Origin: Slackia sp.
GTDB taxonomy: Bacteria; Actinomycetota; Coriobacteriia; Coriobacteriales; Eggerthellaceae
Reading direction: 5' to 3'
Assembly: GCA_029266945.1 (NCBI GenBank)
Contig: JARIED010000005.1
Location: 1-64,000 of the forward strand
DNA length: 64,000 bases
The position numbers and the translations under genes are program-made. This document shows, piece after piece, positions 20,144 to 38,252 of the stretch. Each line of letters starts with the position of its first letter. The first letter of the stretch is position 1. The notes beneath the pieces were generated by a model. It saw only the letters and a list, made by a program, of their open reading frames with translations. It was not told where the DNA came from and ran no database searches.

Positions 20144-21325
20144 CTACCGCGAGCTTGCATTCTTCTTGCGCATGGCCGGAACCAGCAGCATCGCGCACGC
20201 CACGACTCCGCCGACTGCGACAAGCGCCCCCGCTACACCGACGAAGGCCACCGATATCGCCGACCCCACGGCTCCGCCGATCGCCGATCCGCCGCCGATG
20301 CCCAAATTGAAAATGCCCGAGAAGATCGACATGGCCACAGCGGCCGACCCCGCGGGCGCATACCTGAGTATTTCGGCCTGAAGCGACACATTGAACGCCG
20401 TGCCGCAGGCGCCCCAAAGCACGCACATCCCAACGACGCCCGCAGCGCCCTCGACCGCAGGCAGCATGAACGCAAGCGAGGCAGCGATACCCGAGAGCAC
20501 CGCGACAAGGAACGCGTGTCGGCGGCGTTCACCTTCGTAGAAGCGCGCGAACAAGAGGCTGCCCGCGATGCCCGCCACGCCGAAGAGAGAAAGCGCAGCC
20601 GTGATGAAGCCGTCCGAAAATCCCCCGACCTGCTGCAAGAACGGCTCGATATAGCTGTAGCCGGTGTAATAGCCCGTGGCAACGAGCGCCGTGACCAGGT
20701 AGATCGCAAGCAGCACGCGGTTTTTCAACAGGCCCGGCAGCTCGCGCAGCGAAAAACGCTCGCCCACCCCCATCTTCGGGAACACGACGAACAGATACGT
20801 CAGCACGAGAAACGATACGACCGCGATGCAGACGAAGGTCATGCGCCACCCGAGCGCCAGGCCGACGACGCGACCCAGCGGCAGCCCGCAAATCATGGCG
20901 GCCGACGAGCCCGCGACGATGGTCGAAAGCGCGCGGGAACGGTACTCGGGACGAACGGTCTGCACGGCAGCAGGCGAGGCGACCGACCAGAACACGGCAT
21001 GCGCGCACGCTACGCCGACACGCGCGGCCATAAGGCTCCAATATCCGGGAGCTAACGCGGAAAATACCTGGCACATGCCGAAAAACGCCGCCAAGAACAG
21101 CAAGATCTTCCTGAAATCGAACCGAGATGCGAACACCATGAGCGGCAGAGAGAGCAAACAGACCGCCCACGCATACACCGAAATCAGCAGCCCCGCGCAA
21201 GCTTCCGTGACGCCGAAATCGGCCGCGATGTCGACGAGCAGCGCAATCGGCATGAACTCGGAGGTATTGAACACGAACGCCGCAACGGCGATGCCTATCA
21301 GGGGAAGCCATTCCTTCGCCGTCAT
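20144..21325 (-). CDS. MFS efflux transporter (SotB/AraJ-like)
   Basis: 12-TM pattern; EWLPLIGIAVAAFVFNTSEFMPIALLVDIAADFGVTEACAGLLIS. Confidence 0.85.
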   Translation of the reverse strand: MTAKEWLPLIGIAVAAFVFNTSEFMPIALLVDIAADFGVTEACAGLLISVYAWAVCLLSLPLMVFASRFDFRKILLFLAAFFGMCQVFSALAPGYWSLMAARVGVACAHAVFWSVASPAAVQTVRPEYRSRALSTIVAGSSAAMICGLPLGRVVGLALGWRMTFVCIAVVSFLVLTYLFVVFPKMGVGERFSLRELPGLLKNRVLLAIYLVTALVATGYYTGYSYIEPFLQQVGGFSDGFITAALSLFGVAGIAGSLLFARFYEGERRRHAFLVAVLSGIAASLAFMLPAVEGAAGVVGMCVLWGACGTAFNVSLQAEILRYAPAGSAAVAMSIFSGIFNLGIGGGSAIGGAVGSAISVAFVGVAGALVAVGGVVACAMLLVPAMRKKNASSR

Positions 21326-21534
21326 AAACCGCTTCGCACCATCCTTTTTTACGATGTAAACATATATGAGGAACGCGCGCAGAACCAAGCACATCCCCTT
21401 TTTGCGGACGGCGATTATAAACCGGGCCTACGCTCGACGGAGCGCAGGCCCCGATAAGACCCGGACGCATCGCATAAAACCCGCCTTCAAGGCGGCGGTG
21501 CGCTGACGATATCGATTATGCGCGCACGCGGCTT

Positions 21535-22074
21535 CTAGCGGCTTTCTCCGAACGCACTTGCCGCCATCGCGCAGAACATGCGGGCCATATCTTCGGGCGA
21601 TTCCTCCATTCCCCCTTCAAGCCACGCTACATATACGCTGAACAGCGCGCCGGAGAAAAAAGAAGCCCGGTAACGCGCCGAGGGATCCGTGTCGTTTTTG
21701 CGCGCCTCGTCTTCTATATAGTTCTGAAACAGCCCTTCGTAAATGCCTGTGCACCCCGTACGATGAAACGACAGAAGCGGTTCGCGATACGAAAGAAAGT
21801 AGCGAAACGTCTTCACGACGCCATCGTAGCTGCAGCATCCCCCCTCGATGCCTTTCATGTTTTTCTTGAAGTCGTCAATGATCATGCGCCCGGCGTCGAG
21901 CAGCACGTCTTCTTTCGAATCGAAGTTGCGGTAATACGACGCGCGGGCCACGCCCGCCTCTTCCACGATATCGGTCACCGAAACGTCAGAGAGTTTTTTC
22001 TCGCCGAGCAGCCGCACTGTTGCGCGGATGATCCGCAACCTGGTGTTCCTATTCGCCTCAATACGCTTATCCAT
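21535..22074 (-). CDS. TetR/AcrR family transcriptional regulator
   Basis: NTRLRIIRATVRLLGEKKLSDVSVTDIVEEAGVARASYYRNFDSKEDVLL N-terminal HTH. Confidence 0.92.
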   Translation of the reverse strand: MDKRIEANRNTRLRIIRATVRLLGEKKLSDVSVTDIVEEAGVARASYYRNFDSKEDVLLDAGRMIIDDFKKNMKGIEGGCCSYDGVVKTFRYFLSYREPLLSFHRTGCTGIYEGLFQNYIEDEARKNDTDPSARYRASFFSGALFSVYVAWLEGGMEESPEDMARMFCAMAASAFGESR

Positions 22075-23247: not shown

Positions 23248-23544
23248 TTACTCCTGAATGCTCTTGTAAAACTTCGCGTCGGCGAACACGTCTTCGATGG
23301 TCTTGCCGTCAAGCCACGCCAGACCGAAGAACTCATTGAGCGTAGCGACCAAATCGGAACAATCGAGGAAATGGCCTTTGTCGTTGAACTCGGCACAATC
23401 CTGCGCGCGCCAGTATTCATCGGTATGGGTGAGATAGTACGTCTTCTCACCGAGCTCCATGAACACACGCGTATTCGCGCGAAGATAATTCGCGAACTCG
23501 TCGAACGAGGCCAGTTCGAGCGCCTCCTCGGCTTGGACTCCCAT
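23248..23544 (-). CDS. Hypothetical protein
   Basis: 99-codon ORF MGVQAEEALELASFDEFANYLRANTRVFMELG...KSIQE with good RBS (GGAAGGAGAGCATC ATG) and following terminator-like hairpin. Confidence 0.65.
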   Translation of the reverse strand: MGVQAEEALELASFDEFANYLRANTRVFMELGEKTYYLTHTDEYWRAQDCAEFNDKGHFLDCSDLVATLNEFFGLAWLDGKTIEDVFADAKFYKSIQE

Positions 23545-23863
23545 GATGCTCTCCTTCCGACTCGATGGAACGGCGCCGCGGTGCGCCGTCGGTTTCATAC
23601 CAAGCATCTTACTATAACGTTACGCGAGGTCGGCCAGCGATTCTCAGAGCGCCGCTCCACGCACCCGAGCGAAGCCGGAGCCGCACGGGAGCATGGACGG
23701 GCGAAACGGAAAAGCGCGGGCGAACGGCGCAGGCATGCGCCCTGCCTCGGCACCTCCGCGCAAATGCGCGCGCCTTCCGCGTTTCGGCGAACATCTATTT
23801 CGCATGATGGAAATCGCACCTCGACAACGGTTCGCACGCCCCGTCCCCCGCAAATATGGCATA

Positions 23864-23898
23864 CTAGATGTTACGTAATTGAAATTCGTAACATCTAG
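23864..23898. promoter_or_regulatory. Perfect 12-bp inverted repeat overlapping the leader/SD of the ABC importer operon
   Basis: CTAGATGTTACG taattgaaatt CGTAACATCTAG, followed by GAGG and ATG at 23907. Confidence 0.8.
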
Positions 23899-23906
23899 GA
23901 GGATTC

Positions 23907-25034
23907 ATGGGTATCAAGAAATCGTTCATAGCGGCGATCGCCGCATGCGCGCTCGCGTTCTCCGCGACGTTCATTGCGACGGGCTGCGCATCGCAAATTC
24001 AGGAAAACGCGGAACCTGCCGCCCCCGCGCAAGAAGAATCGAACCTGGTGACCGACGCGTACGGTCGCGAGGTCGAACTGCCCCAATCCGTCGAAAGCGT
24101 GGCGACCGTCGGCTCGGGCGCCCGTTTCGTCGTGTACGCAGGCGGCCAGGACAAGCTAATCGCCGTCACCGACAAGGAGACCGAGTCCGCACCCGTGCGC
24201 CCCTACACCATGGTCTACGCCGAACAGTTCTCCGCCCTGCCGTCCACGAGCAACGGCAACCATCTCATGGAAACCAGCGTCGATGCCGAGAAGCTGCTCG
24301 AACTGGCTCCCGACGTCATCGTCTCGAGCCGCAGTGCCCAGGAATGCGACCAGCTGCAGGAGCAAATCGGCATTCCCGTCGTAGGCATTTCGTACCAAGA
24401 CCAGCTTTTCGGCGATGACGTATACGCCTCCATCCTGGCCGTCGGCAAGGCGCTCGGCACCGAAGAGCATGCCCGACAGACCATCGATGCCATGAAGGGC
24501 TGGCAGGCCGACCTGCAGGAGCGCACCGCGTCGATCCCCGATGCCGAAAAGCCCGCCGTCTACACCGGCGCCGTGAACTTCAAGGGGGCGAAAAGCTTCG
24601 GCGGCACCTACGCCCAGTACGCCCCCTTCATAGCCGTCAATGCGAAAAACGTCGCCGACGAAACCGGACAGAAGGGCTCGTTCGAAGTCGACCTCGAACA
24701 GCTCGCCGAATGGAATCCCGACATCATGTTCCTCAATGCCGGCAACATGGACCTCATGAAGCAGGACTACGAGGCGAACACGGCGCTCTTCGATTCGCTC
24801 GCCGCATTCCAGAACGGCAAGCTGTACACGCAGCCCGCGTTCAACTTCAACGGAACCAATATCGAAATGGGCATCTGCGACGCGTACTTCATCGGATCGG
24901 TCGTCTACCCCGAAGCTTTCGCCGATCTGGACATGCCCGCGATGTACGACGAGGTCTTCACCACCATGCTCGGAAAGAGCTACTACGAGGACATGAAGGC
25001 CGGCGGCATGGACTTCAAACAGATTTCGTTCTAA
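23907..25034 (+). CDS. Iron/heme/corrinoid-class (FecB/BtuF-like) ABC substrate-binding lipoprotein
   Basis: Lipobox ATFIATGCASQ; VTDAYGREVELPQSVESVATVGSGARF; DVIVSSRSAQECDQL. Confidence 0.88.
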   Translation: MGIKKSFIAAIAACALAFSATFIATGCASQIQENAEPAAPAQEESNLVTDAYGREVELPQSVESVATVGSGARFVVYAGGQDKLIAVTDKETESAPVRPYTMVYAEQFSALPSTSNGNHLMETSVDAEKLLELAPDVIVSSRSAQECDQLQEQIGIPVVGISYQDQLFGDDVYASILAVGKALGTEEHARQTIDAMKGWQADLQERTASIPDAEKPAVYTGAVNFKGAKSFGGTYAQYAPFIAVNAKNVADETGQKGSFEVDLEQLAEWNPDIMFLNAGNMDLMKQDYEANTALFDSLAAFQNGKLYTQPAFNFNGTNIEMGICDAYFIGSVVYPEAFADLDMPAMYDEVFTTMLGKSYYEDMKAGGMDFKQISF

Positions 25035-25065
25035 CACCCCCGAGCGACACCCGCCCGACCACGAC

Positions 25066-25094
25066 AGCCTGCCGCCATGCGCGGCAGGCTTTTT
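25066..25094 (+). terminator. Intra-operon terminator/attenuator between binding protein and permease genes
   Basis: AGCCTGCCGC CATGC GCGGCAGGCT TTTT. Confidence 0.75.
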
Positions 25095-25102
25095 AGGAAG
25101 CC

Positions 25103-26191
25103 ATGGAAGAAGAATCGCTCAAGACCCGCCATGCGGGCGCGGCCGCGCGAAGCGGCAAGCAGCAGTATCTCGGATACGTCCGTCACAAACGTCTCGCTCT
25201 GTCAGGCATAGGAATCGTCACATTCTGCCTGGTCATCGCCTCGCTTATGGCGGGGTCGTCCGACATGGGAATACGCGAGGTACTGGCGGGCCTTTTCATG
25301 ACGGGCGACGAACGCGCCCGCATCGTCGTATGGAACCTTCGCATGCCGCGCATCCTGACGGCGCTCGTGGGAGGCGCGGCGCTCGCCCTTGCGGGCTGCG
25401 CGTTCCAAAGCGTCCTGCGCAATCCGCTGGCTTCGGCCAGCACGCTGGGCATTTCGCAAGGCGCGGCATTCGGCGCATCGGTTGCCATCGTGATCGTCGG
25501 CGGCGGGGCGGCGCTGCACGAAGGAGTCAGCTTCGGCAATCCTTATATCACCGTGATCTGCGCGTTCGCGGGAGCCATATCGTCCACGGTCGTCATATTG
25601 GCGCTTTCGCGCTTTCGCGACATGACTCCCGAAAGCATCGTGCTCGCCGGCGTGGCGCTTTCGGCCGTCTTCACGGGAGGAACGGCGCTCATTCAATACT
25701 TCGCCGAAGACACCCAGGTTGCGGCCGTGGTGTTTTGGACCTTCGGAGACCTGGGGCGCGTGACCTACCGAGAGCTCGGCATCATCGGAGCCGTCACCGC
25801 GGCGGCGGGCGTCTTCTTCCTTTTGAACCGTTGGAACCTCAACGCCATGGAATCGGGCGAGGGTTCGGCCCACGGCCTCGGCGTCAACGTGTCGGCCGCC
25901 CGCCTGGCGTCCATGTTCGTCGGCTCGGCCGCCGCAAGCACCGTCATCGCATTCTGCGGCACGATCAATTTCATCGGCCTGGCCGCGCCGCATATCATGC
26001 GTCGGCTCATCGGCAGCGACTACCGTCAACTGCTGCCCGGCTCGGCGATCATGGGAGCGGGGCTGCTTCTGGCAAGCGACCTGATCGCGCGCTCGGCGCT
26101 TGCCCCCGTCATCCTTCCCATCAGCGCCATCACGTCGTTCGTCGGCGCGCCCGTATTTCTGTACCTGCTGATGAAGGGAGGACGCCGATGA
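25103..26191 (+). CDS. FecCD-family ABC transporter permease
   Basis: LRMPRILTALVGGAALALAGCAFQSVLRNPLASASTLGISQGAAFGA; GTINFIGLAAPHIMRRLIGSDYRQLLPGSAIMGAGLLLASDLIAR. Confidence 0.94.
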   Translation: MEEESLKTRHAGAAARSGKQQYLGYVRHKRLALSGIGIVTFCLVIASLMAGSSDMGIREVLAGLFMTGDERARIVVWNLRMPRILTALVGGAALALAGCAFQSVLRNPLASASTLGISQGAAFGASVAIVIVGGGAALHEGVSFGNPYITVICAFAGAISSTVVILALSRFRDMTPESIVLAGVALSAVFTGGTALIQYFAEDTQVAAVVFWTFGDLGRVTYRELGIIGAVTAAAGVFFLLNRWNLNAMESGEGSAHGLGVNVSAARLASMFVGSAAASTVIAFCGTINFIGLAAPHIMRRLIGSDYRQLLPGSAIMGAGLLLASDLIARSALAPVILPISAITSFVGAPVFLYLLMKGGRR

Positions 26192-26970
26192 ACCTCGAAG
26201 CATGCGATATCGCTTTCTCATACGGCCGCGGCAACCAGATTCTACGCTCGGTATCCGCAGACATCGTGCCGGGTTCCTTTCTCGCCATACTCGGCGTGAA
26301 CGGATGCGGAAAGTCTACCTTCCTCGACTGCCTCGACGGCATGCTATCGCCGCAGCACGGATGCGTCAGGCTCGGCAACCGCGACCTGAAAGAGGTCGAC
26401 CGCCGATCGAGAGCGCAGTCGATCGCCTACGTGGCCCAACACAGCCATGCCAACCGCCTGATCGCCTACGATGCGCTGTTGCTCGGCCGCAAGCCCTTCG
26501 TGAAAACGGGGCCCACGGAAGAGGACTTCGCGATCGTAGACGGAGTCATCGCCGACATGAACCTTGACGAACTGGCATTTCGCTATGTCGACGAGCTGTC
26601 GGGCGGCGAATACCAAAAGATCGTCATCGGCCGCGCGCTCGTGCAATGCCGAGACGTGCTGCTTCTCGACGAGCCCACGAACAACCTCGATATCGCCAAC
26701 CAGATCGAAGTGATGGAGCTGGCCAGACGCGCCGTCGACCGGCGATCGATCGCCGCCGCGGCCGTCATGCACGACATCAATCTGTCGCTTTCCTATTGCG
26801 ACCGGTTCCTCGTCCTCAAACAAGGCCATGTGGCGGCCTACGGAGGTCCCGAAGTGGTCACGGAAAAGCTTCTGCAAGAGGTCTACGGCATAGACGCCGA
26901 CATCATCGAACGAAACGGAAAGCGCATCGTCATCCCCTACGGACGGCATGCGGAAAGCGAGGAATCATGA
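26188..26970 (+). CDS. FepC/BtuD-like ABC transporter ATP-binding protein
   Basis: LGVNGCGKSTFLDCL, DELSGGEYQKIVIGRALVQ, LLLDEPTNNLDIAN; ATGA overlap with the permease stop. Confidence 0.95.
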   Translation: MNLEACDIAFSYGRGNQILRSVSADIVPGSFLAILGVNGCGKSTFLDCLDGMLSPQHGCVRLGNRDLKEVDRRSRAQSIAYVAQHSHANRLIAYDALLLGRKPFVKTGPTEEDFAIVDGVIADMNLDELAFRYVDELSGGEYQKIVIGRALVQCRDVLLLDEPTNNLDIANQIEVMELARRAVDRRSIAAAAVMHDINLSLSYCDRFLVLKQGHVAAYGGPEVVTEKLLQEVYGIDADIIERNGKRIVIPYGRHAESEES

Positions 26971-27650
26971 CGAATACAGGATTCGAGAACGAACTCGACG
27001 GGGCGGATGAGCAGGTGCGGCGCGAACACATCCGCTGCACGCTCAAGCACGGCAACGAGCCGCGCATGGGCGACTATTTCGACAGCCTCGCGCGAACATG
27101 GGAGGAAAATCTTGAACCCTGCGGCGCAAAGCACCGCGCGACGGCTTTCCTTGCAGGGGTGAAGCCAGGCTCCCGCGTGCTCGACGTCGGGTGCGGCACG
27201 GGCATCATGGCCCAGGCATACCTCGACGCCGGAGCGGCGGAAGTAGTGGCGCTCGACGTAGCGCCCGGCATGATCGAAATAGCGCGCGAGAAATTCGCAC
27301 GCGAACCGCGCGTACGTTTCGAGTGCGCCAGCATTTACAATTTCGAAGACGACCGCCCCTTCGACGCGTTCGTCGCCTACAACGTTTATCCCCACCTGAT
27401 GGACAAACACGGCCTCGCACGCAAGGCAGCCTCTCTGCTCGGAGAACAGGGGCGATTCATCGTAGCCCACGGACTAGGCCGCAAAACCATCAACGCCCAT
27501 CACGATTGCGTGCCCGCGCACATCTGCACGCACTTGGAAACCGCACGCGCGTCGGCCCAGGCATGGGAGGAGCTTTTCAACATCGACCAGATTGTCGACA
27601 CCGACGAGTACTACTGCTTCGGCGGCACGCTGAAAAGCGCGGCGCTTTAG
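26967..27650 (+). CDS. Class I SAM-dependent methyltransferase, translationally coupled to the ABC importer
   Basis: VKPGSRVLDVGCGTGIMAQAYLDAGAAEVVALDVAPGMIEIAREKF; ATGA overlap with the ATPase stop. Confidence 0.9.
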   Translation: MTNTGFENELDGADEQVRREHIRCTLKHGNEPRMGDYFDSLARTWEENLEPCGAKHRATAFLAGVKPGSRVLDVGCGTGIMAQAYLDAGAAEVVALDVAPGMIEIAREKFAREPRVRFECASIYNFEDDRPFDAFVAYNVYPHLMDKHGLARKAASLLGEQGRFIVAHGLGRKTINAHHDCVPAHICTHLETARASAQAWEELFNIDQIVDTDEYYCFGGTLKSAAL

Positions 27651-38155: not shown

Positions 38156-38252
38156 GGAGATGAATGGGTCCTGGTGGGCCCCGCGGCCTTCAAAGCCGTT
38201 GTGAGGCGTGCAGAGCGTCTCGGGTGTGTTCGATTCGCACGCATCTCCGCCA
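38156..38252 (+). tRNA. selC: tRNA-Sec (TCA anticodon), encoded CCA
   Basis: GGAGATGAATGGGTCCTGGTGGGCCCCGCGGCCTTCAAAGCCGTTGTGAGGCGTGCAGAGCGTCTCGGGTGTGTTCGATTCGCACGCATCTCCGCCA: GGAGATG/CATCTCC acceptor, CTTCAAA anticodon loop, long variable arm, TTCGATTC T-loop; immediately after selAB. Confidence 0.95.

Follow-up and report, generated by a model that had tools for sequence, protein, structure and literature searches.

A FecBCD-type importer operon of Slackia sp. with a NikR-type operator and a probable dedicated class I methyltransferase

Introduction

The FecBCD type of ABC importer includes NiuBDE of Helicobacter pylori. Import of nickel, and also of cobalt and bismuth, has been shown experimentally for this system (PMC5140060). 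Nickel uptake through importers of this type is thus already known, as is the NikR box, GTGTTAC-[N13/14]-GTAACAC, deduced for deltaproteobacteria (PMC545781). HmuW, encoded in a heme-uptake operon, was described as a methyltransferase that releases iron (PMC10404700).

The locus described here, from an anaerobic Slackia sp., resembles each of these systems in some respects. It is likened to NiuBDE by architecture, not by sequence: both are FecBCD-type importers, but NiuBDE has been described without a methyltransferase, so nickel import can in general proceed without such an enzyme. Its operator has the box length and half-sites of the NikR regulons of Geobacter and Desulfovibrio (NikMNQO), where nickel-uptake genes likewise lie downstream; however, those regulons involve a different transporter, the accessible part of the study names no methyltransferase in them (PMC545781), and some operons related to ours carry direct-repeat variants of the box. 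HmuW, ChuW and HutW are methyltransferases of metal-ligand uptake operons that act on the imported ligand and free its metal anaerobically (PMC10404700, PMC10035031), as is proposed below for the Slackia enzyme. They are radical SAM enzymes working on heme, whereas the Slackia protein is a class I enzyme in which no radical SAM domain is matched by Pfam. The best explanation of the locus, with a probability of about 0.6 on sequence grounds, is a NikR-controlled FecBCD-type importer of nickel, most likely as a chelate, that works with a dedicated cytosolic methyltransferase.

Organization of the operon

Positions refer to the window, the whole stretch of 64,000 nucleotides that was analysed; the genome it belongs to comprises 1.52 Mb in 39 contigs. 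The features of the locus are as follows.

23864..23898, strand not assigned: perfect palindrome CTAGATGTTACG-N11-CGTAACATCTAG in the sequence upstream of the binding-protein gene, candidate NikR operator
23907..25034, + strand: substrate-binding lipoprotein (Peripla_BP_2, Pfam 79 bits; ATGC lipobox-like)
25067..25094, + strand: hairpin GCCTGCCGC-N5-GCGGCAGGC followed by T5, with a 9-bp stem in the sequence, between the binding-protein and permease genes
25103..26191, + strand: FecCD-family permease (PF01032, 284 bits)
26188..26970, + strand: importer ABC ATPase (PF00005, ABC_tran, 97 bits), in ATGA overlap with the permease
26967..27650, + strand: class I SAM methyltransferase of 227 aa (Methyltransf_25, PF13649, 66 bits), in ATGA overlap with the ATPase

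The four genes occupy 23907-27650 on the + strand, and the functional unit begins at about 23864. An operon of binding protein, permease, ATPase and methyltransferase had been proposed in the initial annotation, and open reading frames, Pfam matches and gene order in relatives agree with it. The span of 26188-27650 assigned to it there takes in the ATPase and the methyltransferase but leaves the binding protein, the permease and the operator outside. Peripla_BP_2, FecCD and ABC ATPase proteins encoded in a single operon place the system among the FecBCD/BtuCDF-type ABC importers. The order of the four genes is kept in relatives, and their distance matrices correlate at r 0.84-0.96, a level reached in 0 of 500 permutations. 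The methyltransferase distances track those of the ATPase (r 0.91) and the permease (r 0.90), again with no permutation of 500 as high, which argues that the four genes are inherited together. An operon with a NikR-type operator and a dedicated methyltransferase partnership is strongly indicated by these sequence comparisons taken with those below.

The operon is flanked by DegV and U32 peptidase genes. A 97-aa reading frame without Pfam or NCBIfam match lies between the DegV gene and the operon (23248-23541, - strand), and an MFS transporter and a TetR regulator, apparently unrelated to the importer, stand in tandem at 20144-22074 (- strand). Elsewhere in the window, 38156-38248 (+ strand) encodes a selenocysteine tRNA (Rfam RF01852, 68.6 bits).

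Two ATGA overlaps had been reported and taken to imply stoichiometric co-expression. The overlaps are present exactly at 26188-26191 and 26967-26970, but the conclusion does not follow from them. Each of the two overlapping start codons is preceded by its own Shine-Dalgarno (SD)-like sequence, so that overlap implies no stoichiometry, and the ATGA at the ATPase-methyltransferase junction is rare, being found in the window and a few other loci while elsewhere the closest methyltransferase start lies up to ~190 bp beyond the ATPase stop. The hairpin and T5 tract after the binding-protein gene also speak against equal expression: this element, identical in the nearest relative (L032) and matched by hairpins at several other relatives, is likely a partial terminator or processing site and probably leads to a surplus of the binding protein. 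A scan for consensus promoters and terminators did not pick up this hairpin. The start of the methyltransferase at 26967 is supported by an N-terminal extension of ~33 residues ahead of the conserved core, which it has in common with relative G001.

A NikR-type operator

The palindrome at 23864-23898 lies between a CATACT hexamer at 23860-23865, a possible -10 box, and the SD sequence of the binding-protein gene, and is the sole perfect site of its kind in the genome. Its core, ATGTTAC-N13-GTAACAT at 23868-23894, fits the published NikR box; that consensus being deltaproteobacterial, the fit makes NikR binding an inference from sequence here. Related operons were scored by the number of matches to the 14 half-site positions, inverted or direct, with N13 spacing and a threshold of at least 12/14. 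Of 23 orthologous operons, 18 have such a box no more than 330 bp from the start of the binding-protein gene, and the rest of these loci, 291,164 bp in all, contains none. Another two operons have a box of 11/14, a score reached by their shuffled upstream regions in 0/100 and 1/100 cases. The remaining three (G025, G313 and G283) have no recognisable box. NikR was not found in G025 or in G313, the latter a genome 75% complete; G283 encodes NikR, yet its operon lacks the box. Across the window's own genome, full matches to the half-site pattern are confined to the operon and a tandem pair at C37:64128-64193, with one weaker one-mismatch site and no hit for the reversed-pattern control.

An RNA hairpin masking the SD sequence was considered for the palindrome. 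Such folding is possible in the window, but the direct repeats of relatives cannot fold in this way. The distance of the box also differs between relatives, up to ~220 bp upstream, which together with the direct repeats fits a DNA operator better.

The conserved upstream box and the presence of nikR in the genome together suggest membership of a NikR regulon. The nikR gene is directly upstream of hypF (identified from its reading frame, without a model search), and the large subunit of a [NiFe] hydrogenase, carrying the motifs RICGIC and DPCLSC, is encoded in the genome as well. The tandem pair of NikR-type boxes on C37 noted above stands ahead of an ABC operon of Nik/Dpp type (L005 6372-8193, G000:C37), which is probably a second nickel importer.

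The transported ligand

A siderophore, heme or corrinoid ligand had been suggested for the importer at first. The family-level FecBCD annotation leads to this expectation, and heme and B12 ATPases and permeases are among the best models. On this reading the methyltransferase would be an unrelated gene co-transcribed with an importer of iron, heme or corrinoids. However, the importer proteins reach no NCBIfam equivalog (heme ATPase, BtuCD, FecCDE, FepDGC and siderophore models all stay below cut-off), and at the Rfam gathering threshold the window contains neither a cobalamin nor a NiCo riboswitch, its Rfam matches being tRNAs only. Along with the NikR-type operator and the conserved methyltransferase partnership, these results make an iron, heme or corrinoid importer very improbable.

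The closest solved structure to the binding protein is TM_0189 (2etv, 330 bits), for whose ligand a literature search returned nothing relevant. Next, at 90 bits, comes HI_1472, which we take to be MolA, a binder of molybdate and tungstate. Transport of these oxyanions would accord with the latter match, though it is far behind TM_0189, and with the FmdE carried by a paralogous importer class described below. Against it stand the NikR boxes and the adjacency of nikR, the TonB receptors found in relatives, and the fact that an oxyanion offers nothing to methylate; its likelihood is equally slight.

The NikR-type operator instead points to nickel, presumably both as the regulating and as the transported metal, and the operon is, on sequence evidence, very probably a NikR-controlled importer of nickel or a nickel chelate. 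The TonB receptors of relatives make a chelate seem likelier than the free metal, and the ligand is hypothesized to be an organic nickel chelate. Some carriers of the methyltransferase are without NikR (L048, L049, L051, L053, L065), so nickel may not be the sole metal involved.

Partnership of the methyltransferase with importers

Among 61 relatives, the methyltransferase is found in 13 genomes including that of the window, and in all 12 other carriers it directly follows the importer, within the limits of the contigs. Ellagibacter isourolithinifaciens (L046) has the operon too. A wider survey of 399 genomes from the same order locates it at 30 places in 29 genomes. All but one adjoin the importer ATPase; the exception, L191, is a degenerate fragment. 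At L190, from an Eggerthellaceae relative (G313:C5:92000-102000), in-frame TGA codons occupy the positions of conserved tryptophans of the methyltransferase (equivalents of W45 and W200). The genes for the binding protein and the permease contain them too, as though this codon were read as Trp.

Outside the order, the same methyltransferase subfamily accompanies other importers at 30-35% identity. In the Clostridia-like class of Fervidicola ferrireducens it occurs in 15 of 26 genomes, in each case (15/15) after an ECF S-component, with nikR immediately upstream at five. In a deltaproteobacterial class, 20 of 46 genomes carry it and all 20 copies adjoin an ABC-3 permease. Nearly all delta loci with longer flanks consist of a TonB receptor, a ZnuA-like protein, an ATPase, a permease and the methyltransferase; about half of these clusters visibly begin with nikR, and several have NikR-type boxes. 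Bacteroidales and Bryobacterales loci combine a TonB receptor, an S-component and the methyltransferase. At the edge of the family, matches in a broader genome scan that are below ~30% identity or confined to the SAM domain merge with generic methyltransferases that lack an importer.

Orthologues generally devoid of an importer, which the initial annotation held to count against a link between enzyme and transport, are not what these surveys found: the methyltransferase is importer-adjacent in 29/30, 15/15 and 20/20 cases. The association of methyltransferase, importer and nikR is strong, not universal, and a role as dedicated importer partner is strongly indicated by this pattern of gene neighborhoods.

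Several neighboring systems were noted along the way. The ZnuA-like protein of loci L061, L074, L072, L075 and L255-L268 is short, has a CPxxxD motif (CPGHYD, CPGHFD or CPSQFD) and is paired with an ABC-3 permease; in the delta loci, nikR and a TonB receptor are often present too. This importer is a candidate nickel counterpart of ZnuABC. A second, divergent class of FecBCD importer has a binding protein ~35% identical to that of the window (L172 2573-5194; L174 2055-6042; L175 1475-6116). Its partners are a different methyltransferase of ~280 aa (L174, L175) and/or an FmdE-like protein (L172, L175), and NikR-type boxes occur in L172, just before FmdE, and in L174. L232 brings FmdE and both methyltransferases together with an ECF S-component. 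FmdE was also considered as a required partner and set aside, as it was not found in the window's genome.

Metallophore biosynthesis genes often lie beside the importers of their products. The methyltransferase might accordingly finish a secreted nickel chelator from a common metabolite, to be retrieved by the importer once loaded, and its apparent co-regulation with the importer through NikR-type boxes would suit such a role. Opine-like zincophores, the subject of a published paper (PMC7438024), can be set beside this reading. Yet the operon contains neither an exporter nor a second biosynthetic gene and has DegV and U32 peptidase genes as neighbors, and the same lone methyltransferase recurs in unrelated groups without a common biosynthetic cluster. 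Nickelophore biosynthesis is unlikely, if less so than the other alternatives.

The enzyme

The Rossmann-like fold and a DxGCGxG SAM motif assign the methyltransferase to class I. Known methyltransferase equivalogs of NCBIfam (UbiE, UbiG, CpaM, BchM, BioC, PrmA and DVU_1556) all score below cut-off, the best being CpaM at 58/180 bits, and the possibility raised earlier of an unrelated rRNA, tRNA or quinone substrate finds no model that reaches its cut-off. Searches of the PDB by sequence and by fold (Foldseek) returned generic methyltransferases only.

One of the weak equivalog matches bears on the ligand. FecBCD/BtuCDF-type importers carry tetrapyrroles, the host is an anaerobe of gut type, and BchM is among the models matched, as might be expected if the ligand were a nickel tetrapyrrole, such as F430 shed by methanogens, and the enzyme performed one step of its salvage for nickel. 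However, BchM is far under its cut-off (48 of 158.9 bits), no tetrapyrrole gene was seen near the operon, and a ligand of this kind fits the small ECF S-component partner poorly. A nickel tetrapyrrole is accordingly improbable.

Residues F38, W45, the GCG motif, D97, P142-H143, H168 and H179 are invariant in the methyltransferase alignments, and the N-terminal F and W, the SAM motif and the three histidines (window numbering) remain so across taxonomic groups. In class I enzymes the substrate edge lies after strands beta4 and beta5. H143, H168 and H179 follow these strands in the AlphaFold model (pLDDT 91.6), and the PDB sequence search places H143 opposite the second His in the 3DTN motif IHHL. 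That structure was the starting model in solving CysG/BelI, where His122-His123-Asp191 bind a divalent metal (PMC11408123). The alignment and the CysG/BelI site make it plausible that the window's enzyme binds a metal in its active pocket. CysG and BelI are metal-dependent class I O-methyltransferases of similar fold (Foldseek), with H143 falling at their HH-motif position via 3DTN, but they are biosynthetic enzymes for beta-lactones at ~20% identity, and the other two conserved histidines of the window's enzyme differ.

Proposed mechanism and implications

The following sequence of events would account for the place of a methyltransferase in a nickel importer operon. Under nickel shortage, NikR would come off the palindrome (23864-23898), allowing transcription of the operon. 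The lipoprotein would capture a small nickel complex, which FecCD and the ATPase would carry into the cell. There the methyltransferase, made from the same mRNA, would move the methyl group of SAM to a donor atom of the ligand (N, S or O). Methylation would weaken nickel binding and stop the ligand from re-chelating the metal, and the freed nickel would pass to the hydrogenase maturation machinery. Action of the methyltransferase on the imported ligand has about an even chance of being correct; that methylation actually frees nickel is a more tentative proposal. Slightly more tentative still is its extension to a widespread family of class I methyltransferases that demetallate or inactivate imported nickel chelates, with the apparently unrelated FecBCD, ECF S-component, and TonB receptor plus ABC-3 importers sharing one organic nickel ligand.

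Searches of the open-access literature returned no account of nickel being stripped from an imported ligand in the cytosol, and nothing that connects NikR-linked importers with a class I methyltransferase of this sort; given that scope, the latter is weak evidence. How anaerobes obtain chelated nickel for their hydrogenases, and in what form, is poorly known. The recurring association of NikR, importer and methyltransferase points to one shared ligand, and the methylated product of a single enzyme would reveal it, which makes the question directly testable. If the proposal is true, these enzymes would be the nickel counterpart of the heme-opening methyltransferases.
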